Below, one piece after another: positions 1,014 to 35,300 of a stretch of DNA of 64,000 nucleotides. The notes beneath the pieces were generated by a model. The model worked only from the letters and a program-made list of their open reading frames with translations. It was not told the origin of the DNA and did no database searches. Where the stretch lies: the NCBI GenBank assembly GCA_964019415.1, contig OZ025879.1:7190649-7254648 (forward strand). Direction: 5' to 3'. The stretch comes from Ianthella basta. Its lineage: Eukaryota > Porifera > Demospongiae > Verongiida > Ianthellidae. The position numbers were made by a program, and so were the translations under genes. The number at the start of each line of letters is the position of its first letter. Position 1 is the first letter of the stretch.

Positions 1014-4000
1014 ATGGCGGGCAACATGGTGGTTGTGTCAATGATAGTGCCACTGGTTCTTCTGGTAGTGCCAGTGCTGTTAACCACATATCGGTACCCT
1101 TTGGCTGCAGCAAGTGAACCTGATGACTGTGAATCTTGCTCAGATGGACCAGAAGATCGGATCAAGTTGAGATACCCATACAGCTACTCTGGGCAGATCT
1201 TAGGGCAGTTCCTGGTTTGTTATGGAGGCTTTTGGCGAACACTCTGTGATGATCAAAAGAAGTATAAGTTCACTGACACCGACGCCAGCGTCGCGTGTTT
1301 CCAACTCGGTTTCACCAGTGGCCGGGCAGGTCCAGGGCGTGGGATAGAGGACGGGTGCTTGCCGCCTCGCGGGAGCGATTTTATCGGTGTCGAGACGAAC
1401 GCGCCGTGCAAGGTCTGGGATGAAAAACTCTCCCAATGCATCAAAGGAGTAAAAGAGGGCGAAGGACGCTGTTCTCTTGAAACCACAGCCAGTGTCATCT
1501 GCAATGGTTAGTCTGACTGTCGTTAGCATTAACGTATGTTGTAGTGCATGCTGTGCATCCCAGCTAGTTAACATTACTAAACAGCGGCTACGTAGCTATA
1601 GCTATAGCTATCGTGCAAGTTGCTCGTGGCTGTACGTATCATGATATCAGTTAAAATGCGCTAGTTAATTTCCGCGTGAAATTAACACCACGTAGCAGAA
1701 GGTTACAAGAATAGGCACCAGGTAAGGGTTAATAAGAGCTGTCCAAGCTACATTTAGTACAGTACCCCGCTCCAGCTTTACTCATGACGGCCATGACCAT
1801 CGATCACAATTATATGCGTGTGTTCTGTGCACACAATGTAAGGCTTCACTGACTCTCTTCACAGTAAAGTTGTACTGATTCGTTAGCAGTATTTTAATGC
1901 ATTCCACACTGATCAAGCACACTGCAATTTATACAGAATGCAATTATAGACCTCTAAATATTGCATTACAATATTTTCCTAAAGATTCCCCCTATTACCC
2001 CTATGACTAAGCACCTATATATAGCAAAGGCCTTCACACTGCAATAGCATTAAGTCAATCTTGTGTGTAACTTTAACTGCATACAATGGATCCTTCACAA
2101 TGTTTCATTGCAGAGACTGCACAGGTTCAGCTCATACACCAAAATACCCCCAGTTACTTTGGTAAAGTGAAGCACTTCTTCAACAACACCTGGCATACCG
2201 TGTGTGATGAGAACTGGACAGATGTGATGAGTAACAGCCATGTACTGTGCAAACAACTGGGCTTGGGGCATGCAGTGGAGCACTGGCTAGATTATCCTGA
2301 TGGAGCAAACACCAGTTTTCTGCACACATACATGAACTGCAATGGCACTGAAAACGCTGACAGACTGACGTTGTGCAACCACAACTTCACCATGGATAAA
2401 AACTGTAGTGGAAAGAGTGTGCCGGGGATACGGTGCAGTGGTGAGTATGTGCTGGTGGGATTTGGCATGAATGTGTTGAGGAGGTGTGCTGTGTTTGCAT
2501 GCATGTGGCACAATTGTGCAGTGGGCAATAAAGAAGGAATCTACAGTGTATAGTATACAGTGGTATGAAGTAATGCGGTCCATGCAGTTTACAGTAACAT
2601 GCAATGAGGATAACTACAGCAGCTAAATGGGCTAGTGGATCTCATTTAATGGTGCACCTAAGGGTAGGATACTTGACTTGTACGAAACTACTACCACCAC
2701 AACATACGCGTTATACTGTATTTGCCCAAACAGGTGCCTTCATGATTTGGCCTTTTGTCTGGCCCAGATTTTGAACACACTTACATTGAATTGAATCTCC
2801 AGCCCACATGTCATATGCTGCAGAGTCCCAGTGTGTAGATTCCAGACCCAGCCTCTAAAGAATAGCTGCTTGGATCCCCAGTGCTACTAATTTTAGCCCC
2901 TGTGGGCTCCATTTGAGCCCGTCATCTACATGGACAAGTACAGGACTAAGTATATTGTGCACATTTTTATACGCAGGTCCAATAGGTAATGCCTTTGAAT
3001 CATCAGCCACCTTTACCAGCATCTCCCTCCAGTGGACTGTGCCAAATGCTCTTCAGTATTATCCTGTGATAGACAGCTACAACATCACTTACTGGGAGCA
3101 GGGAGCCGAGGATAGGGGCAAGGTCACAATTCAAAGAAATCAGCCACAGGCCAGTGCAGTGGGCATAGCATGCATACATATACACTATTAGATTGTCAGT
3201 CTTAAGGGCAGAACTCCAAACCAGGACTGAACATGACATACCAGTCACTAGCTGGTACGATTCCTTTGGCTCTAGCTTTAGAGCATGTTGATCTTGTTTC
3301 TGATTCCCTCACACAACATTTGTCACTTTTGTGTGTAGTGATAGAAGAGCTTCCTTGTGCAGGTGACCATTGGAGGACTCTATGCGGGGACACAGTACCT
3401 TGTGACTGTGAATGCAGTGCTCAAAGGTGACCATCCTGGACCTGAAACTACCCTTGTTATCTCAACCAATGGTAAACTTATGCATGCTTTGTACTGGTAG
3501 CTCAGGCATGCATGCGGAATGGAACTTTGACTGAGTAACTAACTCTTCACTGACTACATACTTGGGATTAGCACCTTTACAACTGCATGATGTTCACACT
3601 GCAGAATGATGTATATGGTTTAATTGATGTCCACATTCTCTGTGTCAATGTGTAGGCTACCTTGTGATAGGACTTGCATCAGGATTGGGAGTGTCACTGT
3701 TTGGCATGCTTCTTGCATGTGTCCTCCTTGTTGTCAATATTGGAGTCTTTGCTTACCTGAAGTGAGTGTCTGTGTTGGTGCATGTTAGCCTCTATGTACA
3801 AAGGCCATGTGGCCTATATGCATGCAGTCGTGTGGTTCAGTGTGGTTCATCTTGTTACTGTGCTGGTTTTGGTGTGCAGAACACGTGCACATCAAAGAAT
3901 GCGCGGCCCATATCAAGACATTGATGATGCAAATGACAGTGATGATGCACATGACAGTGATGAGGAACGTGAAGAACAGCATCAAGGGAATGAGCAACTC

Positions 4001-4162
4001 CACCTACAGAATCCTGCTGCTGGAGAAAATGAAAATCAGAGACTTTTGCCCAGGCGTAATGAGGATGAGCAGCCAGAGCAACCAGCAGCAGCTGATGACC
4101 AGGTGCCGGCAGAACAACCAGGAGTAGCTGTGGTCCGCCGTGGCTACTGTTCGATCCTCTAG
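1014..4162 (+). CDS. Receptor A: SRCR-SRCR-FN3 single-pass membrane protein
   Basis: Six exons: 1014-1506, 2114-2440, 2977-3158, 3363-3471, 3656-3761, 3880-4162. All junctions are GT-AG and phases match, giving 499 aa. Exon 1 encodes a signal peptide (Leu/Val-rich residues about 10-25) and SRCR-1 with eight cysteines; exon 2 a six-cysteine SRCR-2; exons 3-4 one FN3 domain; exon 5 the membrane helix ending V-F-A-Y-L-K; exon 6 an acidic, Gln-rich tail. The ATG at 1014 is preferred over 945 because copies C and D start at the same place. The tail contains ENQRLL, an acidic-dileucine pattern, and ends G-Y-C-S-I-L, a Y-x-x-hydrophobic pattern, both typical of endocytic cargo. SRCR receptors act in ligand recognition and scavenging, and sponge SRCR proteins are linked to aggregation; the role here is inferred. 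The copy looks intact. Confidence 0.85.
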
Positions 4163-4469
4163 CTCAGCAACACACTGTTGTGTACATAGTGCAGGCCCAT
4201 ACATTTGTGCTATAATTGCAAGTTTAGTATACGTGTTTAGTGAACATTTATACCATTATAGCTCAACTAACAACAGATCCTTTAGCACACATACGTATAA
4301 ACAGCACTTTACATGTACACACAAAGACCACAGTAATGTACTGCGTCAGTTCACAGTGCACTGTATCAGAACATACTGTATTGTCTGATCAGTTATGTTA
4401 TATTGCTCCTGTATACAGACATGCCTGACATTCACTACACAATGTGTAAAGATGTTAGTGCACTCCTAA
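4163..4469. other. 3' flank of receptor A
   Basis: This AT-rich stretch matches the 3' flank of the A' and C copies just after the stop (CTCAGCAACACACTGTTGTG at about 4165 and 9711). It is probably 3' UTR followed by intergenic DNA. No coding signal was seen. Confidence 0.5.
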
Positions 4470-4625
4470 CATGGTCTAATGATAGCTACACAGGTGTCCC
4501 TGGCATGGCTGGAGGGAGCTCAGAAGTGACACTGCTGAGGTCCGACAGCGACTGTACTCTAGACTCGCCCACCACCTGGATGATGGGTGTGTCTGTGGGA
4601 GGATATCACATCAGCTTCTCAGTGT
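4470..4625 (-). pseudogene. Relic of the last exon of the SLC9C1-like exchanger (after copy A)
   Basis: The plus-strand sequence from the ACAGGTGTCCCTGGCATGG block through GATGATGGGTGTGTCTGTGG is closely similar to 35565-35690, which encodes the last residues of the exchanger on the minus strand. It contains only the 3' end of that exon. It is read as a fragment carried along when the receptor was duplicated together with the convergent exchanger end. Confidence 0.8.
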
Positions 4626-4740
4626 ACTGGGGGATCCTCCAGGAACAAGCATTAACTGACTATTAAATAAGTGTTTCTGTACCCTCACCCCACTACAGCA
4701 CCATCCACCATGCCTCCACTCCCTCCCCATCCACTAACAT

Positions 4741-4930
4741 GTACATCTGTTTCACAACTGGTCACAGTGGCAGTCAGGAATGAATGCTCTTCCCACCAAT
4801 AACATTGCCTGAAGTAATATCTTCTTCTCTTTCATCTTTCTGCCACTTGCAAGAGAATGTGTAGAGACAGCCAGGTCAAGAGGAGGGCCACTTCCTTGGA
4901 CACCTGCAGAGTGACCATCATGCAGTGTAT
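4741..4930 (-). pseudogene. Relic of the exchanger's cyclic-nucleotide-binding exon (after copy A)
   Basis: Read on the minus strand this resembles the exon at 36837-37019, sharing V-S-T-H-S-L-A-S-G and K-M-x-E-K-K, but the second half has lost frame by deletions. It lies in the same order relative to the preceding last-exon relic as in the real gene. Confidence 0.75.
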
Positions 4931-4975
4931 GTAGGTGTGTAGCTGAGACAAGCCACACATTATATATGCATATTG

Positions 4976-4977
<2 letters not shown>

Positions 4978-5018
<41 letters not shown>

Positions 5019-5034
5019 CACACACACACACACG

Positions 5035-5066
<32 letters not shown>

Positions 5067-5090
5067 AACACACACACACACACACACACC
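4978..5090. repeat. (AC)n microsatellite
   Basis: About 110 bp of AC dinucleotides with a few CGCA interruptions. Its right edge is the exact 3' boundary of the retrotransposon fragment that follows. Confidence 0.95.
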
Positions 5091-6572
5091 TCCTCCTCCT
5101 CCTCTCCTCTGTTCCCCATGTCCCACTAGGGACGTTGGGCGGGTTCCAGACGCTGTGACACCGGTGCGGGGGTAGCCATGTTCACATTTTGGCAGATGTA
5201 GGTCCTCCATTGCTGTCTGTCTGTGATCGTCGTTGTCCAGTTGGTGATGTCCCTCAAGTCTCGGCTAATGAGGTCACACCAACGAAGGGGTGCTCCTCCC
5301 GTCGGTCTGCGCCTACCGCTAGGCCTGCACCTCAATAGCTGTCTTTGGGGGCGAGTGGTTGGCATTCTCCAGACATGACCAAACCATTGAAGGCGTCTCT
5401 GCTTAAGCTGATCCTCCATTGACACCATCCCTGTTCTCTCCAGGATGTCACTGTTCCGAACTCGGTTCCATAAGGTGATGCCTAGGATGTCGCGAAGGCA
5501 ACGCATCTGAAAGGAATTCAGCTTACGAATGTCATGTTGGGTTACCGTCCATGTCTCCGCTCCATAGAGGAGCACAGACAACACCAGGGTCCGGAAGATG
5601 CGTACTTTGGTGGCAATGCTGAGGGCCCGGCTGCGAAATACTTTCTTCCTCCAAATCTGATACACTTTGCCTGCCTTCTCTAGCCTCACTGACACTTCTC
5701 GTTCCACATTGATAGACTGGCCAATCTCACTGCCAAGATAGGTGAAGGACTCCACCTCTTCTAGGGGCTGGTTCTGCAGCGTGATGGATGGCTGGTTGCT
5801 AGACTGCGGCTCTCCCACAGCGAGGATCTTGGTCTTAGTGGCACTGATAGTCATACCCCACCGTCTGCAGGCATTGTCGATGGCATTGACCATGTCCTGG
5901 AGCTCTCCCCGGGACTCTGCAACCAGTGTCAGGTCATCTGCATACAGTGCATCTTGAATGGATGTAGATGCCGTAGTCTTGTCCCGGTAAGTGAGGAACA
6001 ATCCTTCACTTGTGGTGTAGTCAATCTGCAGGCCTCCATTAAGATTTGCCATTGCCTCTCTCAGGATCTTGTCTAGGAAGCAGTTGAAGAGCAGAGGTGA
6101 CAGCACACAACCTTGACGGACACCGGTTGTCACCTCAAACCTCTCTGATGTGTCTCCTGCTGATCTCACCTGGCACCAGGTTTCTGAGTGCAGCTCCTCA
6201 ATGATGGCTACCAGCTGGCGAGGTACCCCATACTCCCTCAGGATGGCTGCCATGGCTTGACGGTTGACTGAGTCGTAGGCCTTTGTGAGATCCACAAAGC
6301 ACATGAATACCGGTGTCCTGTATTCTGTTGCTCTCTCAACAACCTGTCTCACCACCCAAATCTGGTCAACTGTGCCTCGTCCCTTCCTGAACCCGCACTG
6401 TGTCTCAAGTAACTGAGGTTCAATGATGGCTTGTAGCCTCTCCAACAGGATGAGAGTCAACACTTTACCAGGTACACTGAGAAGGGAAATCCCTCTGTAG
6501 TTCTTGCATTGTGTCCTGTCCTTCTTCTTGAAAAGCGGAATCAATGTAGCATTTCTCCAGTCTTGGGGTGTG
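5091..6572 (-). mobile_element. 5'-truncated RTE-like non-LTR retrotransposon (reverse transcriptase)
   Basis: A minus-strand open frame (translation begins within 6572 and ends at 5126) encodes most of a reverse transcriptase. It has N-Y-R-G-I-S-L-L-S, G-F-R-K-G-R-G, the F-V-D-L-T-K-A-Y-D box, G-V-R-Q-G-C-V-L-S-P and the catalytic Y-A-D-D. A thumb/C-terminal region of the S-V-L-L-Y-G-A-E-T-W and W-F-G-H-V type follows. These are features of the RTE-like APE elements. No endonuclease is present. The sense 3' end is a purine trinucleotide run (GGA)n that passes straight into (TG)n. A short poly(A) on the plus strand (about 6574-6583) marks the right junction. The fragment is 5' truncated and probably dead. 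Confidence 0.85.
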
Positions 6573-6583
6573 AAAAAAAAAAT

Positions 6584-7239
6584 GGAGAACGTAAAATGCT
6601 GAGAGTCAGAAGACGCCTGAGAAGTCCACCTCAGAGCGAGCGTACGGGGACCAGCAGGCAGATGCACGTCGTTTTCGGCATGTAGACAGCCCAGCATCAC
6701 CAGCGAGTGGATCGTCCAAGTACAGCGAGCAGAATGGCAGGACGACGGAGGTGTGAACTTCTCGCGACCGAACCGGGCCTGAGGGGAGGCGCGTCCCCGA
6801 CGGGCAGAACCAACAGGCGCACGACACCGGCCAGTCAGGCGGCCTTAAGGCCTGACCCGGAGCCATCGGGACTTCGGCAGGCGGATGAGGGACGCGTCTC
6901 CCCAACGGCTGGCGGGCGGACGAGGGAGGAAACCCCAACGGCCTCTCGATACCCCCTGAGGAGGACTCGGGCCCGTACCTACCGGCGGGAGAAAGCGGCA
7001 GGGCCCGGCGTGAGGCCAGCCACCTCACACACCAGGGCGTCGGCTACAGATACGGGAACCGGACGCGGCGACCCGCGCGAGGGAAGAACCAGTGACATTA
7101 GGGACGGCAGAACCAACTCAGCGCGAACGGAAACACAAGTAGAGGAACTTACAATGCAGCCTTCGATACCAACTCGCTGCCCCCTGTGCACAGCCTGCTA
7201 CACCCACCCTAACTCGATGCGTACCCACTTGAGAAGAAC
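6584..7239 (+). mobile_element. GC-rich retroelement segment with a C2H2 zinc-finger ORF, opposite strand to the adjacent RT
   Basis: The plus-strand frame open over 6707-7351 (first ATG 6734) is Arg/Pro/Thr-rich. It contains one C2H2 finger at about 7180-7240: C-P-L-C, then H-L-R-R-T-H. It runs directly into (AC)n, where the frame becomes His-Thr repeats, so the ORF has no natural end. GC content is clearly above its surroundings. Such single fingers occur at the ends of several LINE proteins. It may be the inverted 5' part of the neighbouring RT element or a separate fragment. Confidence 0.5.
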
Positions 7240-7260
7240 ACACACACACACACACACTTA
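7238..7260. repeat. (AC)n remnant on the right side of the insertion
   Basis: About 20 bp of AC. Just to the right, GGGGAGGGGTAATGTGTG... at 7284-7330 matches 34268-34315, the right flank of the second (AC)n-inserted element, so both insertions sit at paralogous positions. Confidence 0.8.
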
Positions 7261-8542
7261 CATGCTTGCATGCATTCACAAATGGGGAGGGGTAATGTGT
7301 GGGGGTGGTGTGTCCATACTGTCACTTCCAAGGAGAGATAGCTACAGCTAGCTAGCTATTACGGATCCTTAGACACCCAAAGCAGATGGCCATGGCCAGC
7401 CAGGCACCACAAGTCAACGTATGTAGCTATTCACATCTACTGCTAGGAGGGAAGTCTTTATGCTAATCCAGTAGCTAGTACCTACACAGAGTGTGAGTGG
7501 ATGTGATCAGAATCAGTGGACTAGTTACTATAGTAGAAGCATATACTTTGAAATCTACTCGTATTCAAGAGACGCTGCAGTGATTGACAAAGAAAAATAT
7601 ACAATATAGTACGGGCCATGCCATGTACACACAGCTTGCACGTGGCAGGTACATTTGGAACTGAAATGGGATTTATGATACCAATGAATATGATTAAAGT
7701 TGCTAATAACTACTCTGACCATATGCAGCCAGCTGGACCTTCCTAACCTTTAATGTGTATATGTTAGGTATAGTTTGAAACTGAAACACATATAAGACCA
7801 ATGAATATGATTTGGGACAGCATTCTGGTTGCTAAGGGAGATGCTGTGCAGATGCCACACTCCAGCCCTCCACTGGTACTCTCTAATTACAGGGTTCTCC
7901 TCAAGGACATCATGAATATTGCTATAGTGGTGATCGTGAATGCCAATTTCTGTGTAGCTAACAGCTTCTTCAGTTTATTGGGTGTTCCTCCAGAAACAAA
8001 TATGGATTTGGGGTTACTGTAGCTACCTCACCTCCAGCCCTCAATTTGATCTTCCCTCACTTAGCATCTCTGATGATCACCTAAAACATAGCTAATGAGG
8101 GGGGGGGGGGGGGGGCATTATCGCTGTATTATGGATCCATATACACACAAAGCAGCTGGCCACTTTCTGCAGGCACCACGTCAATATGTAACACACGGTT
8201 ATATACATAATGCTGCATAAGATACGTAGATGATGTTTTAGTGAACAATTCACCACAACATACACGTTATACTGTATTTGCCCAAATAGAGGCAATTTGG
8301 CCTTTTGTCTGGCCCAGATTTTGAACACACTTACATCGGACCGAATCTCCAGCCCACGTGTCATATGCTACAGAGTCCCAGTGTGTGGATTCCAGACCCA
8401 GCATCAATTCAGACCCAGCCTCTAAGAATAGCTGCTTGGATCCCCAGTGCTACTAATTTTAGCCCCCGCGGGCTCCATCTGAGCCCGACATCTACATGAA
8501 CAAGTACAGGACTAAGTATATTGTGCACATTTGTACATGCAG
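7261..8542. other. Intergenic duplicated segment before cassette A'
   Basis: 7539-8270 is duplicated at 9794-10486 plus 13541-13575. 8275-8540 repeats part of intron 2 of receptor A (about 2725-2975). A poly-G run of about 16 lies near 8101. No SRCR exon or promoter block for A' was found here. Confidence 0.6.
7800..7965 (-). pseudogene. Relic of exchanger exon 15 (first copy)
   Basis: The plus-strand stretch around GCTCTCTAATTACAGGGTTC (written there as CTCTCTAATTACAGGGTTCTC) parallels 36490-36645, exchanger exon 15 and its donor flank. The frame is degraded. It is one of three such relics (see 10066 and 27216). Confidence 0.7.
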
Positions 8543-9710
8543 GTCCAGAAGCTGATGACTTTGAATCATCAGCCACCTCTACCAGCATCTCCCTCCAGTG
8601 GACTGTGCCAAATGTCCTTCAGTACTATCGTGTGATAGACAGCTACAACATCACTTACTGGGAGCAGGGAGCCAAGGATAGGAGCAAGGTCACAGTTCAA
8701 AGAAATCAGTCAGAGGCCAGTGCAGTAGAGATAGTATGCATGCATACACTATTAGATTGTCAGTCCTAAGTACAGAACTCCATGCCAGGACTGAACATGA
8801 CATACCAGTCACTAGTACGATTCCGTTAGCTCTAGCTTTAGAGCATGTTGATCTTGTTTCTGATTCCCTCACACAACAGTGCAATTGTTACTTTTGTGTG
8901 TAATGATAGAAGAGCTTCCTTGTGCAGGTGGCCATTGGAGGAATCAATGCGGGGACACTGTACCTTGTGACTGTGAATGCAGTGCTCAAAGGTGATCATC
9001 CTGGACCTAAAACCACCCTTGTTATCTCAACCATTGGTAAACTTATGCATGCCTTGTACTGGTAGCTCATGCATGCATGCGGAATGGACCTTTGACTGAG
9101 TAACTGACTCTTCACTGACTACATACTTGGGATTAGCACCTTTACAACTGCATGATGTTCACTTGAACCCTGCAGAGATGATGTATATGGTTTAATTGAT
9201 GTCTACATTCTCTGTGTCAATGTGCAGGCTACCTTGTGATAGAACTTGCATCAGGAATGGGAGTGTCACTGTTTGTCATGCTTATTGCATGTGTCCTTGT
9301 TGTCAGTGTTGGAGTCTTTGCTTACCTGAAGTGAGTGTCTGTGTTGGTGCATGTTAGCCTCTATGTACAAAGGCCATGTGGCCTATATGCATGCAGTCGT
9401 GTGGTTCAGTGTGGTTCATCTTGTTAATTTGCTGGTTTTGGTGTGCAGAAGAATGCGCGGCCCATATCAAGACATTGATAATCAACATGACAATGATGAG
9501 GAAGATGACAGTGATGAGGAACATGAAGAAGAACATGTACGTCAAGGGAATGAACAACTGCAGAATCCTGCTATTGGAGTCAATGAAAATCAGAGACTTT
9601 TGCCCAGGCATAACGAGGAGGAGCAGCCAGAGCAACCAGCAGCAGCTGATGAGCAGGTGCCGGCAGAACAACCAGGAGCAGCTGGGGTCCACCGCTGTCT
9701 GCTCTTCTAG
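8543..9710 (+). CDS. Cassette A': FN3-TM-tail exons of the receptor, without SRCR exons
   Basis: Four exons, 8543-8724, 8928-9036, 9228-9330 and 9449-9710, match exons 3-6 of receptor A with phases preserved (entry phase 1) and no frameshift. They encode the FN3 domain, the membrane helix and an acidic/Gln-rich tail with the ENQRLL dileucine motif. The C-terminus differs: a 6-bp deletion and substitutions replace the G-Y-C-S-I-L end with H-R-C-L-L-F. No signal peptide or SRCR exon lies between 4.2 and 8.5 kb. It may be a partial duplicate without a promoter, or an alternative 3' cassette for exons 1-2 of gene A, whose exon-2 exit phase fits. Confidence 0.6.
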
Positions 9711-10486
9711 CTCAGCAACACACTGTTGTGTACACACCGCAGGCCCATACATTTGTGCTATAATTGCAAGTTAAGTACATGTATACACTAGAAACATATA
9801 CTTTGAAATCTACTTGTATTCAAGAGACGCTGCAGTGATTGACAAAGAAAAATATACAATATAGTACGGGCCATGCCATGTACACACAGCTTGCACGTGG
9901 CAGGTACATTTGGAACTGAAATGGGATTTATGATACCAATGAATATGATTAAAGTTGCTAATAACTACTCATACCATATACAGACAGCTGACCTTCCTAA
10001 CCTTTAATGTGTATGTGTATATACAGTTTGAAACTGAAACACATAATCATGTATCATCACTAATGAATATGATTTGGGACAGTATTCCGGTTGCTAGGGG
10101 AGATGCTGTGCAGATTCCACGCTCCAGCCCTCCACTGGTACTCTCTAATTACAGGGTTCTCCAGAAGGACATCATGAATATTGCTATAGTGGTGATCGTG
10201 AATGCCAATTTCTGTGTAGCTAACAGCTTCTTCAGTTTATTGGGTGTTCCTCCAGTAACAAATATGGATTTGGGGTCACTGTAGCTACCTCTCCTCCAGC
10301 CCTCAATTTGACCTTCCCTCACTTAGCATCTCTGATGATCACCTAAAACATAGCTAATGAGGAGGGGGGGGGGCATTATCGCTGTACTATGGATCCATAT
10401 ACACACAAAGCAGCTGGCCACCTTCTGCAGGCACCACGTCAACACGTAACACACGGTTATATACAATCCCATACATTAATGCTGCA
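9711..10486. other. Intergenic duplicate of 7539-8270
   Basis: Near-identical to the segment before A', including the CAAGAGACGCTGCAGTGATT block. It ends where a LINE interrupts it at AATGCTGCA (10478-10486); the continuation ATAAGATACGTA resumes at 13542. Confidence 0.7.
10066..10230 (-). pseudogene. Relic of exchanger exon 15 (second copy)
   Basis: Copy of the relic at 7800-7965 with few differences. Like it, this parallels the real exon near 36516-36644 on the minus strand but has lost its reading frame. Confidence 0.7.
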
Positions 10487-13540: not shown

Positions 13541-13824
13541 ACATAAGATACGTACATGATGTTTTAGTGAACAATTCACCATAGTTCAACATACACACAG
13601 AGACACACGCACACACACACAGAGAGAGAGACTGGGAAATATGGGGCACCACAAGTCAACATATTCATAGCTGTGAGCTATAGCTACGCATGTAGCTAGC
13701 TACACAAAGGCACAATTATGTACTGTAACACACACATTATAATTAGCCGAAGTGAAACTAAAATGAAACACAGTCTTGCTGTTGCCATGGTAACGTTTAG
13801 TTATGCATGACTATATATATATTT
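13541..13824 (+). promoter_or_regulatory. Displaced promoter block of receptor B, with perfect X-box
   Basis: From about 13624 this matches the promoter block of gene A (776-950) almost base for base, including AAGTCAACATATTCATA. A perfect X-box, GTTGCCATGGTAAC, is at 13781-13794. It ends at GCATGACTATATATATA where a LINE begins, so it is now separated from receptor B's first exon by about 4.9 kb. Confidence 0.6.
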
Positions 13825-13828
13825 ATAT

Positions 13829-22475: not shown

Positions 22476-22574
22476 CTCTAGCAACAAACAACTAGCTAAT
22501 AATAATATGCATGGGTTTCTGCTCTCGTAGCACACCCACCTTGCCTCCACTCCCTCCCCCATCCACTAATATAT

Positions 22575-22775
22575 ACGTACATCTGTCTCACAGCTAGTCC
22601 CAGTGGCAGTCCTCTCCCCAGTCAGGATGCTCTTCTCACTGATAACATTGCCTGAAGTAAGAAGGTCAAATGTCTTCTTCTCTTTCATCTTGCTCCTACT
22701 TGCAAGAGAAGGTGTAGAGACATCCAAGTCAAAGGGAGGAACACTTCCTTGGATACCTGCAGAGTGTCCATCATG
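22575..22775 (-). pseudogene. Relic of the exchanger's CNBD exon (after copy B)
   Basis: On the minus strand this stays open across the whole exon-like segment and encodes T-F-D-L-L-T-S-G-N-V-I and L-T-G-E-R-T-A-T-G-T, very close to 36837-37019. The G-E dipeptide of the phosphate-binding cassette has become S-E. Flanking donor-like sequence is altered. Confidence 0.8.
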
Positions 22776-22826
22776 CAGTGTATGTAGGTGTAATGTAAGC
22801 CACACACAATATGCATATTGCCACAT

Positions 22827-22828
<2 letters not shown>

Positions 22829-22906
<78 letters not shown>
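22829..22906. repeat. (AC)n microsatellite
   Basis: About 78 bp of uninterrupted AC between the 3' flank of copy B and the promoter block of copy C. Confidence 0.95.
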
Positions 22907-22911
<5 letters not shown>

Positions 22912-23191
22912 TGCAGAGAGAGACTGGGCATGGGCACCCGGATTAAGTCAACATATTCATACATACCTGCACACTATAGCTGCTCAAAGGCATTATGCTA
23001 TATACATAACACACACAAAACACACCGACCATATTGGAACTGAAATGAAACACTCGCTGCATGTTGTAATGGTAATGATTAGTCATGCATGACTATGCTA
23101 AAATGCACCCACCCCAACACAGAGGTGGGTGGTTGGGCTGGTTGTATATAGTTGGCACACATACCAGGTACAAGGAATATATAGAATAGCG
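22907..23191 (+). promoter_or_regulatory. Promoter block of receptor C
   Basis: Shares AAGTCAACATATTCATA (22945-22961), CTATAGCTGCTCAAA and the TAGTCATGCATGACTATG block with the other copies. The X-box position reads GTTGTAATGGTAAT, a degenerate match. A pyrimidine/purine-rich GGGTGG segment precedes the ATG by about 60 bp. Confidence 0.5.
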
Positions 23192-26100: not shown

Positions 26101-26787
26101 TTTTCAACAATTGAATTCCCTGTTTGCTTACTTCAAACTGTAGTTGACCAAGGTCCCTAAAAATGATGATGGATGCTTTTGTTAAATCTTAATCCATGCA
26201 TGTCTGTGTGTAGGCGCTGTGTCTACAGAAGGACTTGAAGCAGCATTGGGAGTGTCATTGCCGGTCATGCTTCTTGCATGCATCCTAGCAGTCAATCTCG
26301 GAATCTTTGCTTACCTGAAGTGAGTGTCTGTGCTGGTCATGTTATAACTGTATATACAGTGGAACCTGTCTAAGATGGTCACTGCATGTATTAGACAGCT
26401 ATCATACAGCCAGTCACCCTTGGCCCAAATGGCACAAAAATATTGCCTTCTACCACTGTAGAGGAGCAACCTCTCTTTATAGGCCAGTTTGAACTGACCC
26501 ACAGATGGCTGTCTTAGACAGGTTTCACTGTATGAACAACAGTCATACAGTCATGTGGCTCAGTGTGGTTTGGCTTTATTGTACTTGTGCTGCTTTTGGT
26601 GTGTAGAACGCATCAAAGGGGCCCATACCAAGGCCGCAATGACTATCACCCAATTAATGGACCCCCCCGTCCAGCGAATGGTGATGGTGTAAGGCAGCCA
26701 CTAGTGCCACCCCAGGTAAATGCACCGGAGCAGCAGGAGCAACCAGAAGAAGATGCAGTCCGTCAAGGCTACTGTTCAATCTTCTAG
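23192..26787 (+). pseudogene. Receptor C: SRCR-SRCR-FN3 receptor copy with two indel-broken exons
   Basis: Exons by homology: 23192-23666, 24738-25060, 25507-25680, 25904-26012, 26214-26319, 26607-26787. Exon 1 (signal peptide and SRCR-1) is intact. Exon 2 has six CA units after TTTCTG where A, B and D have the length of five. The extra 2 bp (about 24947-24958) shift the frame into an immediate TGA. Exon 3 lacks 2 bp relative to D near 25640-25650. The two changes do not rescue each other because of the stop. Exons 4-6 are clean; the tail is short, lacks the dileucine, and ends G-Y-C-S-I-F. Either a recent pseudogene, a null allele, or sequencing error in the CA run; a secreted one-SRCR product remains possible. 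Confidence 0.75.
26357..26530. mobile_element. 174-bp pogo/Tigger-like MITE in intron 5 of receptor C
   Basis: The terminal inverted repeats begin CAGTG(G/A)AACCTGTCTAAGA and are flanked by TA on both sides (26355-26356 and 26531-26532). Size, TIR start CAGT and TA target fit non-autonomous pogo/Tigger (Tc1/mariner superfamily) elements. Absent from the same intron of other copies. Confidence 0.85.
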
Positions 26788-27105
26788 CTTAATTGTAACA
26801 CACTTTTACATAGGCCCATACATTCACGCTAAGGTATAATACAGGTTTCAGTGAGCAATTGCAACAGCATAATATACCATAGATCAGCTGACTTATACTT
26901 CAAAACACACCTTTAGTGTGGACTCGCATCACTTTACACGTAATTGTACATGCATACATGACCACAGTAATGTACTACAGTAGTTTGCAGAGTGTACTCC
27001 TTTAGACTATACTGCATTGTCTGATCAGTTATGCTATTGTTCCTGCATATGTGACATTCACTGCACCTTATGTAAAGGTATCGGCATGCCCCTAGCATGG
27101 TCTTA
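26788..27105. other. 3' flank of receptor C
   Basis: AT-rich sequence resembling the flank of copy A (for example the TACTGCATTGTCTGATCAGT block at about 27010 and near 4375). No gene was seen. Confidence 0.5.
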
Positions 27106-27150
27106 TATATGATCGTTACACAGGCGTCCATGGCATGGCTGGACAGGTGA
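27106..27150 (-). pseudogene. Short relic of the exchanger's last exon (after copy C)
   Basis: About 45 bp (ACACAGGCGTCCATGGCATG...) corresponding to the extreme 3' end of the exchanger coding region near 35575. Confidence 0.6.
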
Positions 27151-27215
27151 AGGTGCATGTGACAGGTGCCTTTTAAAACTGAAAATGACTCATGAGACCA
27201 ATGAATATGATTATA

Positions 27216-27362
27216 TTTACTAACCTGGTACTCTGGCTGCTTCACGAGGAGTTGAGATGCAATGCGGATGCCACACACCCTCCACAGGTGCTCTCTAATG
27301 ACAGGATTCTTCTCTAGGATTTCAAGAATATTGCTGGCAGTGATCATGAACAGGATATCACA
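27216..27362 (-). pseudogene. Well-preserved relic of exchanger exon 15 (after copy C)
   Basis: The minus strand is open through the whole exon equivalent and encodes F-M-I-T-A-S-N, N-P-V-I-R-E-H-L-W-R-V-C-G and E-Y-Q, nearly the same as 36516-36644, with the GTTAG-type donor conserved. Only this exon and a CNBD piece are nearby, so it is a detached copy rather than part of a second gene. Confidence 0.8.
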
Positions 27363-27555
27363 TCAGCTTATCAGTGTAGCTATTGGGTAGCTAATCCTCC
27401 AGTAGCAAACATAGCTAGCTAGCTATAAAAACTAATAATTTGGGTTTCTCTTACTGCAGTTATCTTCCCTCCCTCACCCACACCCCTCACTTTCACCTTC
27501 CCTTAGCCCCCATGACTATAGCACCATCGACCTTGTCTCCTCTCCCTCCCCATCC

Positions 27556-27725
27556 CTCACCTGTACATCCGTCTCACAGCTGGTCCCAGTGGCAGTCCTC
27601 CCCCCAGTCAGGATGCCCTTCTCACCAATAACATTGCCTGAAGTGAGAAGGTCAAGAGTCTTCTTCTCTGTCATCTTGCTGCTGCTTGCATGGGCAGAGA
27701 TAGCCTCGTTCAGGGAGGATTGACA
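27556..27725 (-). pseudogene. Relic of the exchanger's CNBD exon (after copy C)
   Basis: The minus strand retains T-L-D-L-L-T-S-G-N-V-I-G-E-K-G-I-L-T. The start of the exon is diverged, and the sequence runs towards an (AC)n tract. Confidence 0.75.
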
Positions 27726-27839
27726 CTACCTTGAATACCTACACAGTGACCCACCAAAGTGTATTCGAGTGTAGCTAATTAGCTTGCTTGCTATAGTTAA
27801 GACATGTTACACACTGACGAATGTGCAAACACAATGCTA

Positions 27840-27913
27840 CACACAAACACACACACACAGCACGCACACACATACACACACACACACACACACACGCACA
27901 CACACACACACAG

Positions 27914-28012
<99 letters not shown>

Positions 28013-28020
28013 ACACACGC
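27840..28020. repeat. (AC)n microsatellite with GCACGCAC interruptions
   Basis: About 180 bp, at the same place relative to copy D's promoter as the array before copy C. Confidence 0.95.
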
Positions 28021-28279
28021 ATTCAGAGACTGCAGTGGGACACCCAGATCAAGTCAACGTATTCATATGTATCTGCACGCTATAGCTGCTCAAAAGCATA
28101 TGCTAACACACACAAACCACATTAACCAAGTTGAAACTGAAATGGAACACTCGCTGCATGTTGTCACGGTATTGATTAGTCATGCATGGCTAAAATGTAC
28201 CCACCCCAACATATAGGGGTGGGGGGTTGGGCTGGTTGTGGTCGGCACACATACCAGGTACAAGGAATACAGAGTAGCG
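28021..28279 (+). promoter_or_regulatory. Promoter block of receptor D
   Basis: Shares AAGTCAAC(G)TATTCATA (28051-28067), GCTATAGCTGCTCAAA and TAGTCATGCATGGCTAAAATG with C. The X-box position is degraded (GTTGTCACGGTATT). Confidence 0.5.
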
Positions 28280-29798
28280 ATGGTGGACTACATGGCGATC
28301 GTGTCAATGACACTGCCACTGGTTCTTGTGGCAGTGCTGTCAACCCCATACCAGTACTCTTTGGCTACAGCAAGTGACTCTCCTGATCTCGAGTGTGAAG
28401 ATTGCTCAAATGGGACAGAAAATCGCATCAAATTGATATACCCTCACAAAAGCATGTCCTCTGGGCTGATTGCAGTTTGTAAAGGAGGATACTGGCGGAC
28501 GGTTTGCGATGATCAGTCGACCTTCACGTTCTCTGAGACTGATGCCAGCGTGGCATGTTTCCAACTCGGGTTCACCCGGGGGTCGGGGGGTCCAGGAGCT
28601 CCGGGAGAGCTTGGGTGCTCGCCGCCACCCCCGAGCGCATATATCGCTGTCAACCCGAAGGCGCCATGCAAGGCTTGGTACACAAAGCTTTCCCAATGTA
28701 TTATAGGGGTACCGATCTTCAGGGGATTTTGTTCTCCTGAAACAGCAGTCAGTGTCACCTGCGAAGTTAGCCTTTATTAATATAATTTATCTGCAAGTCA
28801 TCATCACTGCGCTTGTTGACGATCGTGCATTGAGTGCCTATTATATTAGCATAACATTAATCAGATTTTGCACGTATAGGCAACATAAACTGCATACATT
28901 AGATCCTATACCATGCTTCACTGCAGAGACTACACAGGTTCGCCTCATGATCAAGAATACCCCCCGGCCCAGCTACATTGGTAAAGTGCAACACTTCTTC
29001 AACACCACCTGGCATACTGTGTGTGACGGGAATTGGACAGATTTGATCAGCAACAGCAATGTACTGTGCAAACAACTGGGCCTGGGACATGCAGTGGAGC
29101 ACTGGCTTCACAATCGAGATGAAACAGACACCAGTTTTCTGCACACACACATGAACTGCAATGGCACTGAAGACGCTGACAGACTGACATTGTGCAAACA
29201 CAACTTCAGTATGGATGACACCTGCAGTGGAAAGAGTGTGCCCTAGGTGCTGTGCAGTGGTGAGTACATATTCATGTACTGTTAGAATTTGGTGTGAATG
29301 TCCTGAGTAGGTGTACTCTGTTAACGTATGGCCACGTGCTGTGGGCAATGAAGAGGTGTACAGTGGTATGGAGTAATGCGGTCCAGTGGAGAAGCTTGCA
29401 GTATGCAGTGACAATAACTATACAGCGGCTTAATGGGATAATAGATCCCACTTGAGGGGACACATGTGTGCATGGCCACGTGATTCATTGATCACTCTTT
29501 TGTTCTGTTAAGTGCATATGCAGGCATGCATGCTACCAGATGATGTTAGCACACTATCATCACACACTCTGGTATTACCAGACTGGCGTGCAAGTAGTCG
29601 TTTTGGAAGCGCCGTCGTGGGGGTGCCAGAGCTGGGAAGGCGGGCTTCCCTGCTAGTTTTTTAATTATCCTTACACCGAAGCATCTCAAGTACCAAAGCA
29701 TTCAATACATTTTGCTTATTTGTATGACTTCAACCCCAAAAGGTATGCCTGAGTGTTAACTCATATGTTCACCACATAACTTAGTATGTGTGTATGTA

Positions 29799-30503
29799 CA
29801 GTGAATCCTCAGTTATCCCAACCCCTTTGGTCAAATGCCACAAACATTTTGCTCGGATAAGTGAAAAGTTCGGATAAGTAAAATTACAAACAACTACAAC
29901 ATTAACTGTACAAATACACATGCATGCATTCATACATACATTTACTTTTGTAGCAACTCTAGTAAGGTCCTCTGCTTTAGGGACTCTCCTCGTTTACGGA
30001 CTGCGAGGGCATGGGGTTCTCTCAACGTGCATGTGTTGTATTGATTTACTTCAGGCTGGTATCGCTTTTGGCGCAATAACTACGAAACAGAACGCCACCA
30101 CACTCTCAAGGATTATAAAGTGGGGCTCCAGAAGTGTCCTCCTCGGGTTGAAATCGCCCGTCTAGCAGTTCGATCCTGAAGAGATATCCTTCAATTCCGG
30201 TTTTTCGTTCGCCGCTAACAGCCATTTTATTGATTATCGCTCATTGATTCCTTTTATATCGTGCGGTTTAATTCGCTGTCGTCCAACGATCGAATTTAAC
30301 TCGGCCGTCATTATAGCAGCTACCCTTCGTTGCTAACAGCGCAGACCCTTCAAATCAGCCTGGGCCCGATTCGCTGTTGTGCGACTCGCCGAAGCAGAAG
30401 CCCGCCGAAGCAGGCGCCCTGCTAGTAATTGTATTATCCACGTCACATGCAAGGTAATTTTGTGATCCGGATAATCGAGGTTCTGATAACCGAGGATTCA
30501 CTG
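29799..30503. mobile_element. 705-bp pogo/Tigger-like non-autonomous element in intron 2 of receptor D
   Basis: Ends CAGTGAATCCTCAGTTAT and ATAACCGAGGATTCACTG are inverted repeats, flanked by TA (29797-29798, 30504-30505). Subterminal GGATAA motifs recur. No transposase ORF is present. Copy E has the matching empty site with a 3-bp insertion (34370-34376). Confidence 0.85.
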
Positions 30504-30721
30504 TATTGTGCACAATTGTGTAGGTCCAGAAGCCGATGACTTTAATCTATCAGCCACCTCTAGCAACATCTCCCTCCAGTGGACCGTGCCAGTGCCCCTT
30601 CAGTTTTACCCTGTGATAGACAGCTACAACATCACTTACAGGGAGAAGGGAGCTACGGATAGGAACAAGGTCACAACAACTGAACCAGAGGCCAGTGCAG
30701 TGGGCATAGCATGCATACATA

Positions 30722-31050
30722 CCGTATAGCGGGAAAATTTCGCGGAAGAAAATTTCGCGATTTTGTTCAAAACCTAACATTTCGCGGTTTTAATTTCGCG
30801 ATTTCCAACCTCCAAAACCTCTCTTTGGCAGGCAAACTACTTAGTTGAAGGGAATGTTCGAGCACAGAACCATAAAATAGCACTTAAATGGCTAAACCCA
30901 CTTCTGCGCTACGCGGCGGCCATCTTATTATGACGTTTGCATATTATTATACTGATGGGTGGAGAAAATTCGCGAAGGAAATTTTCGCGAATTTGGTGAA
31001 ATCGCGAAAATCGCGAACATTAAACCTCGCGAAATTTTCCCGCTATACGG
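30722..31050. mobile_element. 329-bp MITE with CCGTATAGCGGGAAAATTTC termini in intron 3 of receptor D
   Basis: Perfect terminal inverted repeats of about 23 bp (CCGTATAGCGGGAAAATTTC then GCG) with TA duplications at 30720-30721 and 31051-31052. The arms are rich in TTCGCGAA-type blocks, so it can fold extensively. Its right 200 bp recurs at 53486-53692. Confidence 0.85.
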
Positions 31051-31580
31051 TACACTAGAAGTATGCCAGCTGTGAGGTGTGCACATAGAGTGATGTAAGT
31101 GTTCCTAGTGCAGGTGATCATTGAAGGACTTATGGCAGGAACGCAGTACATTGTGACAGTGGAGGCAGTGCTCAAAGGTGACCGTCCTGGACCAAAAACC
31201 ACCCTTGTTATCTCAACCACTGGTAAGCTTGGCATGCATGCTATGTACATCTCAAGCTGTAAAAATCTCAAATTGGTCATTATCCTATTTCTTTCTTTTA
31301 AGTTGTAGTTGATCAACCAGGACCCCCACGCACAGAACTTGTGACGGGACTTGCAGCAGGATTGGGAGTGCCATTACTTCTTGTATGTGTTCTCCTTTTA
31401 TTTGCTGTTGAAGTCATTGCTTACCTGATCAAGAGGTGATTATCTGTGTGTCCATACAGGCACATTTGTTAGGTAAACAAGTGCTGCAAATGTACATGTG
31501 TTCAGTTTATGTGCTGCCTCTGGCTTGCAGAAGACGTCAACATCTTCCTATGCTCCCAGTGGGCAACCAACTGGTAGTTT

Positions 31581-31820
31581 ATGACCCAGCCCAAGGTGGT
31601 GGAGACCCGGCCCAAGGTGGCAACCCAGCCCAAGGGGGCAACCCAGCCCAAGGGGGCAACCCAGCCCAAGGTGGAGACCCGGCCCAAAGGGGCAACCCAG
31701 CCCAAGGTGGCGACCCTGCCCAAGGTGGAGACCCAGCCCAAGGGGGCAAACCAGCCCAAGGTGGAGACCCGGCCCAAGGTGGCAACCCAGCCCAAGGGGG
31801 CAACCCTGCCCAAAGAGACA
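31581..31820 (+). repeat. Coding 18-bp minisatellite in receptor D tail
   Basis: About 12-13 in-frame units encoding GG(N/D/K)PAQ, same consensus as in copy B but about half the number and with variants such as RGNPAQ. Confidence 0.9.
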
Positions 31821-31933
31821 ACAATGTACATGCTGGTCCACTACACAATCCTTATAATGATAATGAACGAGCTCCCCTATTAAACGATGTACACCAGGAA
31901 CCAGCAGCACGTGGCTACGGTGCACTCTCCTAG

Positions 31934-32214
31934 CTCTGTAACACACTCTTACAAATGCCTAAATATGCAGTACATGCTCAGTTATGCATGTAAACATTTA
32001 ATTCTGCTTTCTTACTATACTCATTATGTGACTTTAAGGTTAGATTAGGTTTTGAAGCCTATTGTACCTGTTACAACTAAAGCAAATTTGTTTATGGCAG
32101 ACTCAATATTGGAGTATATTTAGACAATAATTAATGCCATTGTTCCAGTACATACATGTTACGTATATGTTGGGCCAGTCACTGCTTGCATAGTATGTAC
32201 AGAGCTCTCTGTGT
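31934..32214. other. 3' flank of receptor D
   Basis: Parallels the flanks of B and E. AT-rich, no coding signal. Confidence 0.5.
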
Positions 32215-32370
32215 CCCTAGCCTGGTCCTATGATAGCTATACAGGTTTCTCTGGTATGGCTGGAGGGAGCTCAGAGATGACACTGCTGAGGTCCGACTGT
32301 GACTGTACTCCATGCTCTCCCATCACCTGGATGGTGGGTGCGTCAGTGGGAGGTTGTTACATCAACTTCT
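32215..32370 (-). pseudogene. Relic of the exchanger's last exon (after copy D)
   Basis: The same 3' portion of the exon as in the relics after A and B (TGGCTGGAGGGAGCTCAGAG and the GACTGTGACTGTACTCCATG block), with several changes. Confidence 0.8.
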
Positions 32371-32494
32371 CAGTGCATGTACTGGGTGATCCTCCAGCAA
32401 TAAGCACAACTGGCTAATAATTAAGTGTTTCTGTACCCCCATGCACCCACTACAGTACCATTGACCTTGTCTCCACCCCTCCCCTAACCTATAC

Positions 32495-32680
32495 ATCCAT
32501 CTCACAGTTGGTCCCAGTGGTAGTCTCTCCCCAGTCAGGATGCTCTTCTCACCAATAAATATTGCCTGAAGTAATGTCTTCTTATCTTTCATCTTTCTGC
32601 CACTTGCAAGAGAATGTGTAGAGACAGCCAAGTCAAAGGGAGGACCACTTCCTTGGACACCTGCAGAGTGACCATCATAC
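32495..32680 (-). pseudogene. Relic of the exchanger's CNBD exon (after copy D)
   Basis: The minus strand retains [15 protein letters not shown] and G-E-K-S-I-L-T-G-E-R but is frameshifted before and after. Order and spacing to the last-exon relic match the copies after A and B. Confidence 0.75.
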
Positions 32681-32733
32681 AGTGTATGTAGGTGTGTAGC
32701 TGAGACAAGCCACACACATTATATATGCATGTT

Positions 32734-32811
<78 letters not shown>
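32734..32811. repeat. (AC)n microsatellite
   Basis: About 78 bp of AC. Its right edge is the 3' boundary of the second RTE-like fragment. Confidence 0.95.
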
Positions 32812-32812
<1 letters not shown>

Positions 32813-34206
32813 CTTCTTCTTTACTCCTTGTCCATCATGGACGTCGGGCAGAATCCATTTGCTCTACCTCATCACAGATTGGGATAGGGCTGACTTGGGT
32901 TGGTGTATTGCAGCTCTCCATTCACTTCTGTCCATCACCACTTCTTGCCAGTTAGCGATTCTGGTTAGATCTCTGCTGATCACATCTACCCACCGCAGAG
33001 ATGTCCCTCCTGGTCTCCTCTTCTTTCCTGTTGGTCTGCATCTCAGGAGCTGCTTCTGTGGCCGATGGTCTGGCATTCTCTGTAGGTGTCCAAACCACTG
33101 GAGCCTCTTCAACCTTAGTTGTTCTTCTACTGGTAGTTCCCCAGTCTCCTCCAATATGTCGTCATTGCGTCGTTTGTCCCACAGAGTCACTCCTACAATG
33201 TCCCGGAGGCATCTCATCTGGAATGTCTTCAGTCTTCTGATGTCGTGCTGGGTTACTGGCCAGGTCTCTGCACCGTAGAGGAGGACTGACATGACCATTG
33301 ATCGAAACACACGCACTTTGGTTGTCTTGCTGAGGTTTCGACTCTTGAACACCTTCCATCTCCACATTCGATAAACAGTTGCTGCCTTCTCCAGTCTGAT
33401 TCGAACATCTCTCTCCACCCTGGCAGTCTGTTCCACCTCACATCCAAGGTAGGAGAAGGAGTCGACTTCCTCAAGTGTGTGACCATTAAGTGTGATGGCC
33501 GGATGGTCCCCTGTCAGTTCGCCGATGTTGAGCACCTTGGTCTTGTCTCCATTGATCTTCATCCCCCATCGAGTGCAGGCTCTGTCCAACACATCTACCA
33601 TACGCTGCAGTTCCCCTCTGGTCTCTGCAATGAGGGTCAGATCATCAGCATACTGGATGTTCTGGATGCAGGTGGTAAGTGGGGTTTTGTCCCTGTATGA
33701 TAAGAACAACCCCCCACTGGTGGTGTATTCAATCTGCAGGCCTCCTCCAGTCATCTCCATGGCTTCCCTCAAGATCCTGTCCATGAAGCAGTTGAACAGG
33801 AGAGGGGACAGCACACAGCCTTGTCTTACTCCAGTCTTCACCTCAAAGTCCTCTGATGTCCCGTCTGTGGTTCTCACACAGCACCATGTCCCGGTGTATA
33901 GCTCCTTAATGATGTCAATCAGCTGTTGGGGAACCCTGTAGTGCCTCAGCATGGCAAACAGGGCAGAGCGGTCCACCGAGTCATAGGCTTTAGTGAGATC
34001 CACAAAGCCAAGGTGTACAGGGGTCTGGTACTCAGTTGCTCTCTCTATGATCTGACGTGCTACCCAGATTTGATCAACTGTACCCCGTCCCTTCCTGAAG
34101 CCACACTGCGACTCCATGAGTTGGGGGTCAATGATGGTCTCCAGTCTGTCCAGCAGCACAAGGGAGAGCACCTTTCCTGGAACACTCAGCAGGGATATGC
34201 CGCGGT
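32812..34206 (-). mobile_element. 5'-truncated RTE-like retrotransposon inserted within (AC)n
   Basis: The minus-strand frame from 34206 to 32864 encodes a reverse transcriptase starting at Y-R-G-I-S-L-L-S. It has G-F-R-K-G-R-G, F-V-D-L-T-K-A-Y-D, G-V-R-Q-G-C-V-L-S-P, the catalytic Y-A-D-D and S-V-L-L-Y-G-A-E-T-W, related to but clearly diverged from the copy at 5091-6572. Upstream sense sequence is pure (GT)n, and the sense 3' end is (GAA)n followed by (GT)n, so both ends lie in the microsatellite. Truncated before the RT finger domain and presumably dead. Confidence 0.85.
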
Positions 34207-34240
<34 letters not shown>

Positions 34241-34247
34241 ACACACA
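34207..34247. repeat. (AC)n remnant on the right side of the insertion
   Basis: About 40 bp of AC with CGCACACGCA interruptions. The right flank matches the one at 7262-7330. Confidence 0.9.
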
Positions 34248-34369
34248 TGCATGCATGTATTCAGATATGGGGAGGGGTAATGTGTGAGGGTGGTGTGTCC
34301 ATACTATCACTTCCAAGGAGAGATAGTGTTGACTCATATGTTCACCACATAACTTAGTATGTGTGTATG

Positions 34370-34376
34370 TACAGTA
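34370..34376. other. TACAGTA: likely pogo/mariner excision footprint
   Basis: At the position where copy D carries TA-[CAGTGAA...TTCACTG]-TA, copy E has TACAGTA: the TA target repeated around the three terminal bases CAG. Flanking sequence (ACTTAGTATGTGTGTATG and TTGTGCAC) is the same in D and E. Confidence 0.65.
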
Positions 34377-34394
34377 TTGTGCACTATTGTGTAG

Positions 34395-35300
34395 GTCCAG
34401 AAGCGGATGACTTTAATCTATCAGCCACTTCTAGCAACATCTCTCTCCAATGGACTTTGCCAGTGCCCCTTCAGTTTTACCCTGTGATAGACAGCTACAA
34501 CATCACTTACAGGGAGAAGCATGCATGCTATGTACATCTCAAGCTGTAAAAATCTCAAATCGGTTCGCTCATTTTATGCAATGAAACCTACATGCCCTTT
34601 CAATTTTGACTATGACATTATCCTATTTCTTTCTTTTAAGTTGTAGTTGATCCACCAGGACCCCCACGTACAGGACTTGTGACGGGACTGGGAGTGCTGG
34701 GATTCCTTCTTGTAGTTGCTGTTGGAGTCATTATTTACCCGATCAAGAGGTGATTATCTGTGTGTTCATACAGGCACCTTTGGTAGGTAGGTGCTGCAAA
34801 TGTGTTCATTTTATGTGCTGCCTCTGGCTTGCAGGAGACGTCAACATCCTCCTATACCCCCAGTGGGCAAGCAACTGGTAGTTTATGACCCAGCCCAAGG
34901 TGGAGACCCCACACAAGGTGGTAATCCTGCACAAGGTGGCAACCCAGCCCAAGATGGCAACCCAGCCCAAGGTGGAGACCCCGCACAAGGTGGTAATCCT
35001 GCACAAGGCGGCAACCCAGCCCAAGATGGCAACCCAGCCCAAGGTGGAGACCCCGCACAAGGTGGTAATCCTGCACAAGGTGGCAACCCAGCCCAAGATG
35101 GCAACCCAGCCCAAGGTGGAGACCCCGCACAAGGTGGTAATCCTGCACAAGGTGGCAACCCAGCCCAAGGTGACGACCGAGCCCATAGAGAGAACAATGT
35201 ACATCCTGTTGCACTACTCAATCGTAATGATGAACACGCTCCTCTATTAGACAATGTACACCAGGAACCAGCACCACGCAACTACGATGCACTCTCCTAG
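34395..35300 (+). pseudogene. Fragment E: receptor copy with deletion from exon 3 into intron 4
   Basis: Exon 3 starts normally at 34395 but breaks at about 34518 (T-Y-R-E-K) and joins sequence equivalent to intron 4 of copy D (GCATGCATGCTATGTACATC). The end of exon 3 and all of exon 4 are gone. Exon 5 (34647-34749) and exon 6 (34835-35300) are open and in phase. The tail has GG(N/D)PAQ repeats, keeps EHAPLL and ends N-Y-D-A-L-S. No SRCR exons precede it; a transposon and (AC)n are there instead. Not expected to encode a working receptor. Confidence 0.8.
34891..35180 (+). repeat. Coding minisatellite in fragment E with 72-bp higher-order units
   Basis: 18-bp units are arranged as GGDPAQ-GGNPAQ-GGNPAQ-DGNPAQ blocks (24 residues, 72 bp) repeated about three and a half times. 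Codon usage (CCCGCACAA, CCTGCACAA) differs by position and repeats with the block, so the array grew by 72-bp steps. Confidence 0.9.

Follow-up and report, generated by a model that had tools for sequence, protein, structure and literature searches.

What are the receptors that stand side by side on contig OZ025879.1 (C12 below) of the sponge Ianthella basta, and what might they do? The window analysed here is a stretch of 64,000 nucleotides, C12:7190649-7254648 on the forward strand; positions in it are preceded by w, with negative values upstream of its start. An earlier note on this DNA had described a cluster of six receptors (A, A', B, C, D and E) with two scavenger receptor cysteine-rich (SRCR) domains and a fibronectin type III (FN3) domain. 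All six copies are present where they had been placed, but the array is larger, with 13 units on C12:7138743-7225948: seven further units (U1-U7) precede the window, extending as far as 52 kb before its start, and are followed by the six already named. Every unit has the order signal-SRCR-SRCR-FN3-transmembrane-tail or parts of it. The array is most likely a young family of type I membrane receptors confined to one locus, and I somewhat favour the view that its members are endocytic scavenger receptors with shuffled tails, which would capture material at the cell surface and carry it into endolysosomes.

Gene plan, state and extent of the array

An open gene with five introns, GT-AG ends and phases 1, 1, 0, 1 and 2 can be read in six units (U1, U3, U5, U6, A and B). 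The first FN3 exon (FN3a) has two possible in-frame donors, of which the downstream one was used in the models, and the acceptor of the U3 tail exon was read by eye, inside the first codon, where the frame stays open, so that U3 is counted as open. Copy A (w1014-4162, plus strand, 499 amino acids) consists of a signal and SRCR1 exon (w1014-1506), SRCR2 (w2114-2440), FN3 in two exons (w2977-3158 and w3363-3471), a transmembrane exon (w3656-3761) and an acidic/Gln tail (w3880-4162) with ENQRLL and a terminal GYCSIL. Copy B (w18708-22058, plus strand, 627 amino acids) has exons at w18708-19176, w19785-20105, w20422-20603, w20820-20940, w21179-21281 and w21371-22058, and its tail, a GGNPAQ array, ends ERAPLL...RGYCALY. 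The shared exon layout and phases that had been proposed are borne out by these two genes, in which the same six-exon plan joins into an open frame.

Six of the other units are broken or partial, and the state of the last, U2, is hidden by a stretch of 7500 N bases that crosses it. U4 has a frameshift in SRCR2 and U7 one in SRCR1. Copy C (w23204-26787, plus strand) retains an open SRCR1, an A-class transmembrane exon and a short tail (about w26608-26787) that lacks the dileucine and ends GYCSIF; it is frameshifted in SRCR2 and, as I read it, also in FN3a. Copy D (w28280-31933, plus strand) carries a stop codon close to the end of SRCR2, and a GGNPAQ tail with ERAPLL and GYGALS. Only FN3a, FN3b, transmembrane and tail exons are left of A' (w8545-9710, plus strand), with the dileucine kept and the terminal Tyr lost (HRCLLF), and E (w34397-35300, plus strand) comprises an FN3a remnant, a shortened transmembrane stretch and a GGNPAQ tail with EHAPLL and NYDALS. 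The window does hold intact, partial and broken copies, as described before; the constant ectodomain plan fits A, B, C and D but not the partial A' and E.

Three spliced proteins were scanned with Pfam, namely A and, with truncated tails, B and U1; each gives two SRCR stretches and one FN3, and both families score above cut-off. Taken alone, the SRCR1 exon of A, C and D scores 32.5-36.1 bits, above the cut-off of 26.1. Hydropathy of the six open copies peaks most strongly at the N-terminus and directly before the tail, which fits a signal peptide and one transmembrane segment. By sequence matches to solved SRCR chains, the SRCR2 exon is closest to CD163/M130 (E 4.3e-42), and SRCR1 matches CD163 in part (E 3.5e-6, residues 25-73).

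When the whole genome was searched with the SRCR2 exon of B, at least 11 copies at 60-100% identity came up, on C12:7139733-7219921, and among the matches listed those outside the array reach at most 39% (150 of 949 candidates were scored, making the counts lower bounds). SRCR1 of A has at least 11 copies (12 matches, U7 being split in two pieces), all on C12, and among the matches listed, with 150 of 248 candidates scored, none lies outside the array at E 1e-5. The genome (209 Mb, 96 contigs) is itself rich in SRCR domains, as 150 of 1173 first-look candidates were scored and gave 150 matches. Directly upstream, C12:7060350-7129412 holds ten SRCR2-like matches with FN3-like ones nearby, at about 30-48% identity and in the same orientation, which appear to form another SRCR-FN3 array, only distantly related. 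Scanning the window for Rfam families and tRNAs gave no matches.

Tail motifs and the probable exchange of modules

The earlier note had sorted the tails into two classes. Within the window this division stands, acidic/Gln in A, A' and C and GG(N/D)PAQ in B, D and E, but with the upstream units there are more than two spacer types, and the ends are alike. The acidic/Gln spacer is found in U2, U5, U6, A and A' and is shortened and altered in C (a shorter Pro/Gln/Glu tail); the GG(N/D)PAQ tails of B, D and E contain 18-bp repeat arrays; the spacer of U3 is GGDAVQDGNAAQ, that of U4 QPPDDD/QPPHDD, that of U7 PPPDDD and that of U1 mixed Pro/acidic. Two unrelated tail classes are ruled out, since all tails, upstream units included, have one kind of C-terminal end.

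That end combines two motifs. The acidic dileucine [DE]xxxLL occurs in 12 of the 13 tails (the exception is C) and YxxPhi within the last eight residues in 11 (the exceptions are U6 and A'), each tail carrying at least one of the two. With 5000 shuffles of each tail, both motifs arise by chance in 0-0.44% per tail, a figure to be read in light of the relatedness of the tails, which are not independent; the dileucine alone appears in up to 17.5% of shuffles (U1) and the terminal YxxPhi in no more than 3.7%. NP[FY] stands exactly six residues upstream of the dileucine in five tails (U1, U4, U7, B and D). Patterns for the immunoreceptor tyrosine-based inhibitory and activation motifs (ITIM and ITAM) and for NPxY match none of the 13 tails, and a single hemITAM-like match falls in broken copy C. 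The tail would face the cytosol, and its shared motifs indicate internalisation and transport to lysosomes instead of a signalling role.

Ectodomain and tail probably do not share one history. In a nearest-neighbour scan B is closest to U6 (89-99%) up to about w20796, one 150-base window being matchless, and beyond that to C, U3 and D. Two trees were built from the same 10 copies (U2, A' and E left out). The ectodomain tree joins B with U6 (100/100) and C with D (100/99), with four of its seven inner branches starred, and the tail tree joins B with D (94/94), U4 with U7 (92/95) and C with U5, A and U6 (100/99). The two trees conflict: B goes with U6 outside the membrane and with D inside, and C with D outside and the A class inside. 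From this conflict it follows that the tail module has probably been exchanged at least twice. Approximately unbiased (AU) tests, on groups named after the nearest-neighbour scan, reject forcing B and U6 together in the tail tree (p 3e-51) and B, D and U3 together in the ectodomain tree (p 8e-5).

The best-fitting breakpoint in B, between a U6-like upstream part and a D- and U3-like downstream part, lies at w20870-20901 (plus strand) in two scans. In U7 it falls at w-2146 to -2134 when scanning from SRCR2 on (two scans) and at w-2054 to -2029 when scanning the whole, and in U6 at w-15472. In each of the six scans 0 of 1000 shuffles, which ignore linkage between neighbouring sites, reach the observed value. 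Rapid turnover, suggested earlier for this locus, is supported by what the copies of this one genome display: 13 units in mixed states, close pairs (U5/A and, in the ectodomain, U6/B) and sharp recombination breakpoints.

Growth of the array and its surroundings

On the opposite strand, just past E, a convergent Na+/H+ exchanger gene has its 3' end at w35480-37100 (minus strand) and its Na_H_Exchanger domain at w46699-47169 (Pfam), which I read as one gene; a cNMP match at w36810-37160 (E 0.025) does not reach the cut-off. This 3' end is the source of fragments carried by other units, all on the minus strand: behind A at w4429-4600 and w4724-4916 (85% and 80% identity to w35517-35685 and w36823-37032), behind B at w22244-22449 and w22577-22765 (90% and 88%), behind C at w27055-27753 and behind D at w32163-32673. 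The C-terminal piece (w35517-35685) is found behind 10 of the 12 units besides E, not behind U3 and A', and some exchanger-like piece behind all 12, those of U3 and A' being short (67-107 bases). Short pieces without a preceding tail exon also occur between U6 and U7 (C12:7181622-7181928) and in front of A' (w7635-7944). A tandem unit that carries part of a neighbouring gene points to where duplication began, and these pieces suggest the exchanger/E end. On the simplest reading the first receptor would have stood beside the exchanger, and duplication would have spread away from there.

Partial copy A' is bracketed by direct repeats (w7534-8207 and w9789-10465, 93% identical), likely a trace of its origin. 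A retroelement of the type without long terminal repeats (w13823-18617, plus strand, ends approximate and set by eye; endonuclease and reverse transcriptase in an open frame of 1184 amino acids) separates the 5' flank of B (w13621-13822) from exon 1 of this copy and is oriented as B is; it may silence or drive B. For this element an exact target-site repeat of eight or more bases was looked for and not found. A 5' flank with a TATA-like stretch (w756-961; w13621-13822) is conserved in A, U5, U6 and the separated flank of B. Reverse-transcriptase frames occur between units, one of them confirmed by Pfam, and a further retroelement frame (w38381-40960; RVT_1 and endonuclease, Pfam) lies inside the span of the exchanger gene.

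Elsewhere in the window, two near-identical TGF-beta-like frames, w52167-53030 on the minus strand (not profile-scanned) and w54157-55185 on the plus strand, lie in mirror image with mirrored sequence in between (w52167-55185), and look like a fresh inverted duplication; a third such frame is at w47616-48668. In the same assembly 4341 bases of contig C96, read with table 4, carry, in order, nad6 (end), nad3, trnR, nad4L, cox1, cox2, trnK and atp8 on one strand (protein names by eye), and on the other, between nad4L and cox1, two tRNA calls (Asn; anticodon tca). COX1 of this contig contains nine in-frame TGA codons. Such a code and gene content look like those of a sponge mitochondrion.

Possible roles and known systems

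The proteins consist of a predicted signal peptide, a divergent SRCR1, SRCR2, FN3, one predicted transmembrane segment and a disordered-looking tail. As endocytic scavenger receptors they would bind particles or macromolecules at the cell surface and deliver them to endolysosomes, possibly in feeding or immunity. A recognition role is plausible from the domains. The tail ends in an acidic dileucine motif of the kind used by LIMP2 and LRP1, together with a C-terminal YxxPhi motif that often takes the LAMP1-like form GYxxPhi, and the variable spacer sets the distance of these putative signals from the membrane. The locus probably expands by tandem duplication of a unit made of a receptor and the 3' end of the convergent exchanger gene, and recombination near the FN3 exons and the intron that precedes the transmembrane exon probably re-pairs ectodomains with transmembrane and tail modules.

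Several observations weigh against this account. Counting into the tail exon, the dileucine is reached at 47-207 residues and the terminal Tyr at 55-224, and LAMP signals sit closer to the membrane. The motifs are short and the tails of common descent; open copy U6 does without the terminal Tyr and C without the dileucine. Only one of seven inner branches of the tail tree is starred, its B and D pairing reaches just 94/94, and C forms a long branch there, flagged by the program as unsurely placed. The AlphaFold model of the SRCR1 exon (four rows of the window) has a mean predicted local distance difference test score (pLDDT) of 39 and was not used, and because of this the SRCR1 fold rests on Pfam and the partial CD163 matches.

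Could the array instead be a neutral product of birth and death, its exchanges and tail repeats being by-products of unequal crossing over and an 18-bp minisatellite, and its tail diversity without special function? The broken or partial units, the repeat arrays in B, D and E and the reverse-transcriptase frames between units all fit. However, summed over all pairs, the ratio of non-synonymous to synonymous substitution (dN/dS) is below 1 in every ectodomain exon: 0.53 in SRCR1 (10 copies; broken U7 left out), 0.44 in SRCR2 (9 copies; broken U4 and C left out), 0.77 in FN3a (10 copies; U2, C and E left out) and 0.57 in FN3b (12 copies; E has none). Both terminal motifs are moreover kept across spacer types, and together with the ratios this argues for constraint on the ends. 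The neutral account explains the spacer better than the motifs, and I regard it as unlikely.

Quite unlikely, in my view, is a combinatorial system in which modules are continually re-paired by recombination around the FN3 and transmembrane introns, so that individuals differ in ectodomain-tail wiring; if true, such a system would amount to a repertoire made by germline exon shuffling in an animal of an early-branching lineage.

An allorecognition locus, with self or aggregation-factor ligands for the variable ectodomains and an array that differs from one individual to the next, would fit a tandem array with turnover; SRCR and SCR domains are combined in a described sponge aggregation receptor (review PMC4557014), and sponges reject non-self grafts (PMC5450542). 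Short ectodomain stretches also approach or exceed a pN/pS of 1 (12-codon windows, 7-8 representatives): it is above 1.2 in three spots, one where mature SRCR1 begins (1.68) and two at the FN3a start (1.73 and 1.46), 0.94-1.13 over SRCR1 alignment columns 115-144 (a loop) and 0.98 at the SRCR2 start. Single small exons above 1 are FN3b of U6/A' (3.39, nine changes) and U4/U7 (1.15, four) and SRCR2 of U6/B (1.06, five), and FN3b of U6/B has six replacement and no silent changes. Strong overall diversification of the ectodomain is nevertheless not supported by the per-exon range of 0.44-0.77; I read selection as probably ranging from purifying to relaxed, in data that also contain recombination and broken copies. 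An SCR/Sushi domain is absent from A, B and U1 (Pfam, E 0.1), the main text of the graft paper (PMC5450542) names SRCR 0 times, and the tails carry trafficking motifs, not ITIM or ITAM. I consider allorecognition very doubtful.

Least probable are paired activating and inhibitory receptors, one ectodomain on tails of opposite sign and matched by gene conversion: one ectodomain type does occur on two tail classes, twice, and the CEACAM and CD300 families show such pairing (PMC2832619, PMC12447643), but strict ITIM/ITAM pairs are rejected by the tails, and the same sorting motifs are kept in both classes. Spacer-specific adaptors may nevertheless exist.

A small family at a single place, with two sorting signals, several spacer types and natural swaps of ectodomain and tail, makes a concrete prediction and renders uptake, signalling and self-recognition directly testable against each other.

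How, then, does the array compare with known systems? CD163 (M130) is an endocytic receptor with an SRCR ectodomain on a membrane protein, and the nearest solved relative of the SRCR2 exon; the array differs in having two SRCR domains and FN3, a very divergent SRCR1 and a repeat-spaced tail with dileucine and C-terminal YxxPhi. In sponges, SRCR expansions of hundreds of genes, many in tandem (PMC10855680), SRCR-FN3 combinations (PMC8242945, PMC6208332) and, in Halichondria panicea, individual-specific expression of pattern-recognition receptor genes (PMC8242945) are on record. Compared with these expansions as described in those sources, the tail-module exchange, shared sorting tails and co-duplicated exchanger fragment are seen in the array only; a literature search did not find tail-module exchange in SRCR genes, which does not prove its absence from print. 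The sponge SRCR/SCR aggregation receptor (PMC4557014) and the FN-SRCR-CCP multiadhesive protein of Geodia, with its SRCR and fibronectin modules, resemble the array, whose scanned members (A, B and U1) have no SCR/CCP module at the threshold given above. CEACAM and CD300 likewise set related ectodomains on different tails (PMC2832619, PMC12447643), but the array tails are without ITIM or ITAM. The sorting signals [DE]xxxL[LI] and YxxPhi are defined, and used in LIMP2 (DERAPLI), LRP1 and LAMP1, in PMC5297682. The array tails share one or both of them as putative signals, in the forms [DE]xxxL[LI] and (G)YxxPhi, and their ERAPLL resembles the DERAPLI of LIMP2, but they are joined to unrelated ectodomains and carry the signals far from the membrane, past a variable spacer.

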